In this document: piece by piece, positions 1-484 of the stretch
Layout of the letters: each line of letters starts with the position of its first letter
Position numbering within the stretch: the first letter of the stretch is position 1
Notes under the pieces: generated by a model
Databases searched by the model: none
What the model saw: the letters and a program-made list of their open reading frames with translations, nothing else
Told to the model about the DNA's origin: nothing
Assembly: GCF_001645185.1 (NCBI RefSeq)
Contig: NZ_LXTQ01000020.1
Span: forward strand, 1 to 64,000
Length of the DNA: 64,000 bases
Direction: 5' to 3'
Source: Methylobacillus sp. MM3
GTDB lineage: Bacteria; Pseudomonadota; Gammaproteobacteria; Burkholderiales; Methylophilaceae
Translations under genes and position numbers: made by a program

Positions 1-20
1 ACACCTATCGGTTGTCCTGA

Positions 21-33
21 TTTTTAAAGAGCA
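21..33 (-). promoter_or_regulatory. boxA-like antitermination site of an rRNA leader
   Basis: Read on the minus strand this is TGCTCTTTAAAAA, very close to the boxA element of enterobacterial rrn leaders, where NusB/S10 bind and protect the transcript from Rho. It lies downstream of five strong tandem promoters that point the same way, so a 16S rRNA gene probably begins just left of the window. The rRNA gene itself is not visible. Confidence 0.7.
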
Positions 34-59
34 TGTCGCCGTAGCAACGAGAGGGGCGC

Positions 60-87
60 ATTATACAGACCGCTTACTTCCGGTCAA
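60..87 (-). promoter_or_regulatory. rrn promoter copy 5 (nearest the rRNA operon)
   Basis: Minus-strand -35 TTGACC (87-82), 16-base spacer and consensus -10 TATAAT (65-60), followed by a GC-rich discriminator typical of promoters under stringent control. This is the only copy with a perfect -10. The upstream DNA is A/T-rich, as expected for an UP element. Confidence 0.75.
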
Positions 88-151
88 GCTTTTTGTCAGC
101 ATTATTTTACCAACAAACCCGCACCACTCCTCGCTTACATGCGAGGCGCGC

Positions 152-179
152 ATTTTACAGACCTTTTCGTTTCGGTCAA
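152..179 (-). promoter_or_regulatory. rrn promoter copy 4
   Basis: Minus-strand TTGACC (179-174), 16-base spacer and TAAAAT (157-152), followed by GCGCGCC. Same layout as its neighbours. Confidence 0.65.
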
Positions 180-236
180 GAGAAATTAACTTCGCTTTCT
201 CTTTGCTGCTTGCCTCGCCGTTGAAGCGAGCCGCGC

Positions 237-264
237 ATTTTACAGACCTTTTCGCTTCGGTCAA
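237..264 (-). promoter_or_regulatory. rrn promoter copy 3
   Basis: Minus-strand TTGACC (264-259), 16-base spacer and TAAAAT (242-237), with a GCGCGG discriminator. A run of A and T upstream of the -35 resembles an UP element. Confidence 0.65.
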
Positions 265-324
265 GAGGAAAATTTAACTTCTTTTTCCTCGCTGCTGCTG
301 CCTCGCTGCTAAAGCGAGCCGCGC

Positions 325-352
325 ATTTTACAGACCGGTTTAATCCGGTCAA
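325..352 (-). promoter_or_regulatory. rrn promoter copy 2
   Basis: Minus-strand TTGACC (352-347), 16-base spacer and TAAAAT (330-325), with a GCGCGG discriminator and an A/T-rich upstream tract. Confidence 0.65.
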
Positions 353-411
353 GAGGGAAACGAAAATTTGTTTTCCTCTACTGCCTGACTCACTCTTGAA
401 GCGAGGGGCGC

Positions 412-439
412 ATTCTACAGGCCGCAAAATTCCGGTCAA
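412..439 (-). promoter_or_regulatory. rrn promoter copy 1 (most distal)
   Basis: Minus-strand TTGACC (439-434), 16-base spacer and TAGAAT (417-412), with a GCGCCCC discriminator. It starts 46 bases beyond the tyrS stop codon with no intrinsic terminator between, so tyrS transcripts may read into the array. Confidence 0.65.
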
Positions 440-484
440 GAGCAAACGGGAAATTCTTTTTAATACGACCAGTTTGCTCTCCTC

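Follow-up and report, generated by a model that had tools for sequence, protein, structure and literature searches.

The first 64,000 nt of contig C20 of Methylobacillus sp. MM3 (hereafter the window; the contig is 357,669 bp long, in a genome of 2.96 Mb on 59 contigs) begin with five promoters of one kind in a row, raising the question of which gene they serve and why there are five. All of them lie on the minus strand, between positions 439 and 60, and have the form TTGACC-N16-TANAAT followed by GCGC. From the promoter most distant from the 16S rRNA gene to the nearest, these are P5 (412–439, TAGAAT), P4 (325–352, TAAAAT), P3 (237–264, TAAAAT), P2 (152–179, TAAAAT) and P1 (60–87, TATAAT); in each pair of coordinates, the higher is the first base of the −35 element and the lower is the end of the −10 element. 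The initial annotation had described five tandem TTGACC-N16-TATAAT-like promoters with 85 to 92 bp between the −10 elements, each with its own A/T tract and GC-rich discriminator, and this description held throughout. The −10 elements are spaced by 87, 88, 85, and 92 bp in the order from P5 to P1, the 22 bp above each −35 element contain 68–77% A+T, and GCGC directly follows the −10 element in all five promoters. Positions 1–2000 of the window contain six promoter-like sites, five of which are the array members, compared with 1.2 (sd 1.2) in 50 shuffles, and a triple-promoter pattern has three matches in the window vs. none in 100 shuffles. Tandem Repeats Finder reports an 88-bp repeat at 141–442. 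The gene at 485–1672, by its protein sequence probably tyrS (tyrosyl-tRNA synthetase), is encoded on the same strand as the array and ends just before P5. Between the promoters and the 16S gene, at 19–33 on the minus strand, there is presumably a boxA-like antitermination element of an rRNA leader, identified by eye from its likeness to the E. coli rrn motif.

Contig C20 ends at base 1 of the window, and positions 1–127 (minus strand) overlap exactly with the end of contig C3 (5,538 bp), which carries the leader, the 16S gene (C3 3714–5254), the genes for tRNA-Ile and tRNA-Ala, and the 23S and 5S genes. Via this 127-bp overlap, the array leads into a 16S-tRNA-23S-5S operon, as the initial annotation had proposed, and the 16S gene that was to be sought to the left of the window is found on the adjoining contig, starting 217 nt beyond the last −10 element (C3 5471). 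The locus is a tandem rrn promoter region, with at least two sigma-70-type promoters in the same direction and a complete rRNA operon downstream. The further suggestion that this would be the single rrn operon of the genome had to be abandoned. Contig C3 has two different upstream flanks (C20 and C58) and two downstream flanks (C40 and C1); it is therefore a collapsed contig common to at least two rrn operons. In the second operon, C58 ends in the same leader after a tRNA-Met gene, and there are two promoters, TTGACG..TAAAAT and the shared P1. The two operons are 96% identical over about 160 bp (C58 64181–64339 vs. window 1–160); the likeness spans P1 and stops inside the P2 promoter, and the DNA farther upstream differs. 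A contig that ends at the array and a collapsed rrn operon could suggest that the copy number is an assembly artefact. However, the longest exact repeat within the array is 25 bp, compared with the 127 bp of the contig overlap, and we therefore consider an assembly error in the copy number hardly credible.

Two other properties ascribed to the array, near-identity of the copies and helical phasing, were not confirmed. The 88-bp units are 53–79% identical, with 79% for P2-P3, 75% for P3-P4, 70% for P2-P4, and 53–64% for the P1 and P5 units in comparison with the rest; the P1 unit shares 98% identity with the P1 unit of the second rrn operon. Judging from these identities, the middle block P2-P4 looks like the duplicated part of the array, and the end units P1 and P5 look older. 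The spacings correspond to 8.29, 8.38, 8.10, and 8.76 turns of 10.5 bp (Rayleigh R 0.24, p about 0.74), and the best of the five periods tried was 11.0 bp (R 0.71, p about 0.08). Across the family Methylophilaceae, 81 spacings from 49 arrays, chained up to 160 bp and many of them orthologous, range from 73 to 145 bp with a median of 94, and R is 0.31 at 10.5 bp; for the 32 distinct spacings, R is 0.26–0.32 and p is 0.04–0.11 over the five periods, a weak hint of helical phasing across the family.

If the middle units were duplicated and have since diverged to 70–79% identity, they could be no more than decaying products of tandem duplication, in which case only the proximal promoter, perhaps together with the distal one, would be active. 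The one congener compared, which has two promoters at the same tyrS-rrn locus and no middle copies, fits this possibility. However, both hexamers and the GCGC are kept in all five copies despite the diverged spacer: 1 of 16 element columns is variable, vs. 9 of 16 spacer columns (Fisher p 0.006; columns counted by hand), although this comparison is partly circular, the promoters having been found by their elements. The spacer length of 16 bp is also kept. Furthermore, folding predicts that the transcripts of P5 (389–405), P4 (302–318), P3 (214–230) and P2 (129–146, all on the minus strand) start with a hairpin, and every middle copy retains this 5′ hairpin with a changed loop. Mere decay of the middle copies is thus improbable.

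Comparing the promoter copy number among relatives, as the initial annotation had suggested, revealed that it is lineage-specific. Of 159 Methylophilaceae genomes with a completeness of at least 80%, 120 contain the strict promoter and 39 have no strict match; about as many genomes as these 39 have single promoters only. At the strict spacing of 70–100 bp, three or more promoters are present in 13 of the 159 genomes, that of the window included. Altogether, 80 genomes from 19 genera contain 94 tandem arrays: 65 of two promoters, 20 of three, eight of four, and a single one of five, in the genome of the window. The window array is thus the extreme case of an arrangement that is common in Methylophilaceae. 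Directly upstream of the array, tyrS is found in 70 and a tRNA gene in 8 of 107 entries, which take in several loci of one place as well as arrays outside the family; four of the tyrS matches are only 25–27% identical. An Rfam scan found 16S after the array on the same strand at 15 of 15 loci, that is, 11 from the family and four named others (12 and three if locus L043 is counted as family). Among 24 genomes, the number of 16S genes is 0–3 each, several of them fragmented or collapsed, and we propose no inverse relation between the count of rrn operons and that of promoters per operon. In four family genomes, the array regions exactly match those of Methylovorus menthalis, Methylovorus mays, Pseudomethylobacillus aquaticus, and Methylobacillus flagellatus. 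In genera g13 and g15, whose listed genomes are 1.0–1.4 Mb in size, no listed member has a strict promoter match, and the rrn promoters of these small-genome genera seem to be of another form.

The family arrays share an order in the third base of the −10 element TANAAT. Listed from the most distant promoter toward 16S, these bases are G-A-A-A-T in the window array. The arrays of genus g11, which resemble those of Methylobacillus gramineus, arboreus, and caricis, have the series G-A-A-T; those of Methylovorus have G-A-T-T or G-G-T-T, those of g3 have G-A-T or G-G-T, and two-promoter arrays mostly have G-T or A-T. Toward 16S, the bases rise from G via A to T in 84 of the 94 family arrays, whereas one array falls (G155), five are flat (G024, G026, G082, G130, G157), and four are mixed (A-G-T in G091, G094, G129, G159). 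The proximal base is T in 87 arrays, G in four, and A in three, and the upstream bases are G in 68, A in 56, and T in nine cases. When bases were shuffled within arrays, none of 5,000 shuffles reached the observed genus-averaged score of 0.85, the largest value being 0.51, and 18 of the 19 genera scored positive, none negative, and one zero; the genera share descent, and the 94 arrays represent far fewer independent events. The proximal T is missing in seven arrays (G010, G021 twice, G082, G130, G155, G157). The array of G082 is cut by a contig end, whereas in G021 it is the TAAAAT promoter that comes directly before a boxA-like element, a true exception to the order. The discriminator also depends on the place in the array, with GCGCG(G/C)C at 61 of 81 upstream sites and GCGC(A/C)CC at 44 of 49 proximal sites; judging from the motifs, this might change the initiating nucleotide.

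Such an order need not have been selected. It could have been inherited from one ancestral pair, with a distal non-consensus and a proximal consensus promoter, to which extra copies were added from the upstream kind only. The arrays occupy the same locus across genera of related family members, and the middle units of the window array have the same base type as promoters in upstream places in other arrays, both of which agree with inheritance. However, the spacers differ between genera, and the third base nevertheless keeps its place (T at 87 of 94 proximal sites, G or A at 124 of 133 upstream sites). We regard inheritance without selection as rather unlikely.

Outside of Methylophilaceae, the order is different. 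A scan of 84,980 species genomes (contigs of at least 3 kb, the window's own genome possibly excluded) for three such promoters in a row retrieved 43 stretches, ten of them from Methylophilaceae by name or identity and 33 from others, including three from one species (P. saudimassiliensis). Unequal bases are present in 26 of these 33 arrays: 19 arrays fall toward 16S, none rises, and seven are mixed. Hence, the order toward 16S in Methylophilaceae is opposite to that in most other tandem arrays compared. The arrays of Thalassolituus, Oceanobacter, Halopseudomonas, Gallionellaceae, and others are otherwise similar, with three to five units mostly 78–112 bp apart (two gaps are 143–145 bp), but in these Proteobacteria, unlike in Methylophilaceae, the distal promoter tends to be the one with the consensus TATAAT. 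One locus from a MAG labelled Thiohalomonas denitrificans (L036, 340–1100, minus strand) has, in a relaxed scan, five promoters after tyrS, with TTGATC in the farthest and GCAC after the nearest promoter and hairpin-like sequences after several −10 elements; this is apparently an independent five-fold array.

The RNA encoded between the promoters is structured. The read-through leader of the window array (412 nt) has a folding z of −4.17, and for 26 chosen arrays the RNA between the first and the last −10 element has a mean z of −3.65, compared with −2.47 for the other strand and −0.33 for 52 upstream control stretches, which are mostly coding and therefore compare imperfectly with leader RNA. 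In the family, many transcripts would open with a hairpin of the type CTCGCT-loop-AGCGAG. Over the first 34 nt beyond the −10 element, the mean z is −1.38 in the family (70 windows, 40% below −2) and −0.45 in another set that includes a few Methylophilaceae (118 windows, 10% below −2). Both sides of the stem are changed in G021 (CTCACTT..AAGTGAG). Such hairpins would be likely to protect the untranslated leader, which is made before boxA, from RNases and Rho.

Inverted repeats are also found above the −35 elements of the window array. Those above P5 (439–480, beside the tyrS stop), P3 (265–290), and P2 (178–203) were detected by an inverted-repeat search (I1, I5, and I4, respectively), and an imperfect one above P4 (353–378) was read from the sequence and is not in the list from that search. 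Clear as they are in the window, these repeats are weak across Methylophilaceae (mean z −0.80, 21% of 72 below −2), so that they were dropped as a general family trait; elsewhere, the stretch above the −35 element is weaker still (mean z −0.38, 11% of 124 below −2). In four of the five window copies, a GACC-N10-GGTC dyad overlaps the −35 element and the spacer, and P5 has GGCC. In the family arrays, GGTC accompanies TTGACC in 27 of 70 cases, compared with 2 of 29 where the sixth base differs (p 0.0014). Among 141 distinct family promoters, the matching half-site is absent from all 55 that deviate at the sixth base, and GGTC is missing in 109. The halves thus do not co-vary, and the dyad was rejected as a regulator-binding site. 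Because of this same dyad, spacer stretches of family promoters fold more stably (mean z vs. shuffles −1.14, 72 sites) than those elsewhere (0.04, 124 sites).

Building on the promoter sequences observed, their place after tyrS and before rrn, the third-base order in the family, the varying copy number at the locus, and the structured RNA between the promoters, we consider it probable that the array serves as the control region in front of one of the genome's two or more rrn operons and that its five sigma-70-type promoters, one distal TAGAAT, three middle TAAAAT, and one proximal TATAAT, work together; the activity of each promoter is inferred. Many operons of the family show one strict promoter or none, which slightly lowers our confidence. 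Each promoter would bind RNA polymerase independently. Neighbouring polymerases with alpha-CTD contacts need a distance of at least about 80–100 bp, and units of about 88 bp, packed near this limit, could serve as separate loading sites, from all of which transcripts would run into the same 16S gene. The strength of −10 elements presumably decreases from T via A to G at the third base; with the weaker promoters upstream, their traffic would leave the strong proximal promoter accessible, and all five could fire together. The GC-rich discriminators may confer sensitivity to ppGpp/DksA and to the initiating NTP. Copying of the middle unit would have added loading sites, most useful when free polymerase is scarce; the multiplied units carry TAAAAT, the middle non-consensus type, whereas the proximal promoter has TATAAT.

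This arrangement can be illustrated by a toy model of polymerase traffic, run with assumed rates at low, middle, and high settings. With the rising order at the middle setting, all five promoters fire (0.18, 0.27, 0.16, 0.12, and 0.21 per s), whereas with the falling order the distal promoter takes 66, 75, and 80% at the low, middle, and high rates, respectively. Five promoters yield 54, 36, and 20% more than the proximal promoter alone as the binding rates rise. The order barely alters the total output (0.93 rising vs. 0.90 falling; 1.08 vs. 1.10 at the highest rates), and therefore output alone does not explain it. The modelled traffic rather suggests that a rising order would reflect cooperating promoters, and a falling order promoters held in reserve.

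Alternatively, the G-A-T order could reflect different regulation and not strength, such that the upstream promoters, with unstable open complexes, are under growth-rate control, and the proximal TATAAT promoter provides a basal level. The discriminators differ by place and could change the initiating nucleotide, and the roles of the E. coli promoters would follow the same physical order, P2 being constitutive at a low level and P1 being driven by Fis and a UP element (PMC4696680). However, promoters at all places have GC-rich discriminators and A/T-rich upstream DNA (mean A+T 75% for proximal and 70% for upstream promoters), with no clear division between regulated and unregulated promoters. 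Differential regulation is a real possibility, not far from an even chance, next to the cooperation of the five promoters that we prefer.

Tandem rrn promoters as such are already known, and the array of five is a large example of them. The E. coli rrn operons also have GC-rich discriminators, UP elements, and boxA; they resemble the array in their tandem promoters before 16S, the discriminators, and boxA, but have two promoters, about 120 bp apart, whereas here there are five, about 88 bp apart, with the consensus −10 element at the proximal end. This pair, P1 and P2, is present in each of the seven E. coli operons (PMC4696680). In Mycobacterium, M. chelonae rrnA has five promoters, the promoter number varies between species, and an rrn operon is also found after tyrS; however, there the multi-promoter operon is the one after murA, the tyrS-linked operon has a single promoter, and no order rule is mentioned in the available part of the source (PMC10218544). 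A literature search by title, with subscription journals mostly outside its reach, found nothing on rrn promoters of Methylophilaceae or on ordered −10 series. Potentially new, then, are the ordered −10 series and its direction in Methylophilaceae.

We tentatively propose that the rrn operons of Methylophilaceae have position-coded arrays, with a distal TAGAAT, a varying number of middle TAAAAT, and a proximal TATAAT with its own discriminator, in the reverse of the order in most other tandem rrn arrays and with a hairpin at each transcript start. The number of middle units might then be an evolutionary dial for the rRNA supply, an alternative to multiplying rrn operons. Bacteria are usually compared by their rRNA operon count. 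Should the number of promoters per operon be a second dial, one that changes faster, the capacity for rRNA synthesis could not be read from the operon count alone. The ordered series, running in opposite directions in two sets of Proteobacteria, also offers a natural experiment on the interference between neighbouring promoters.
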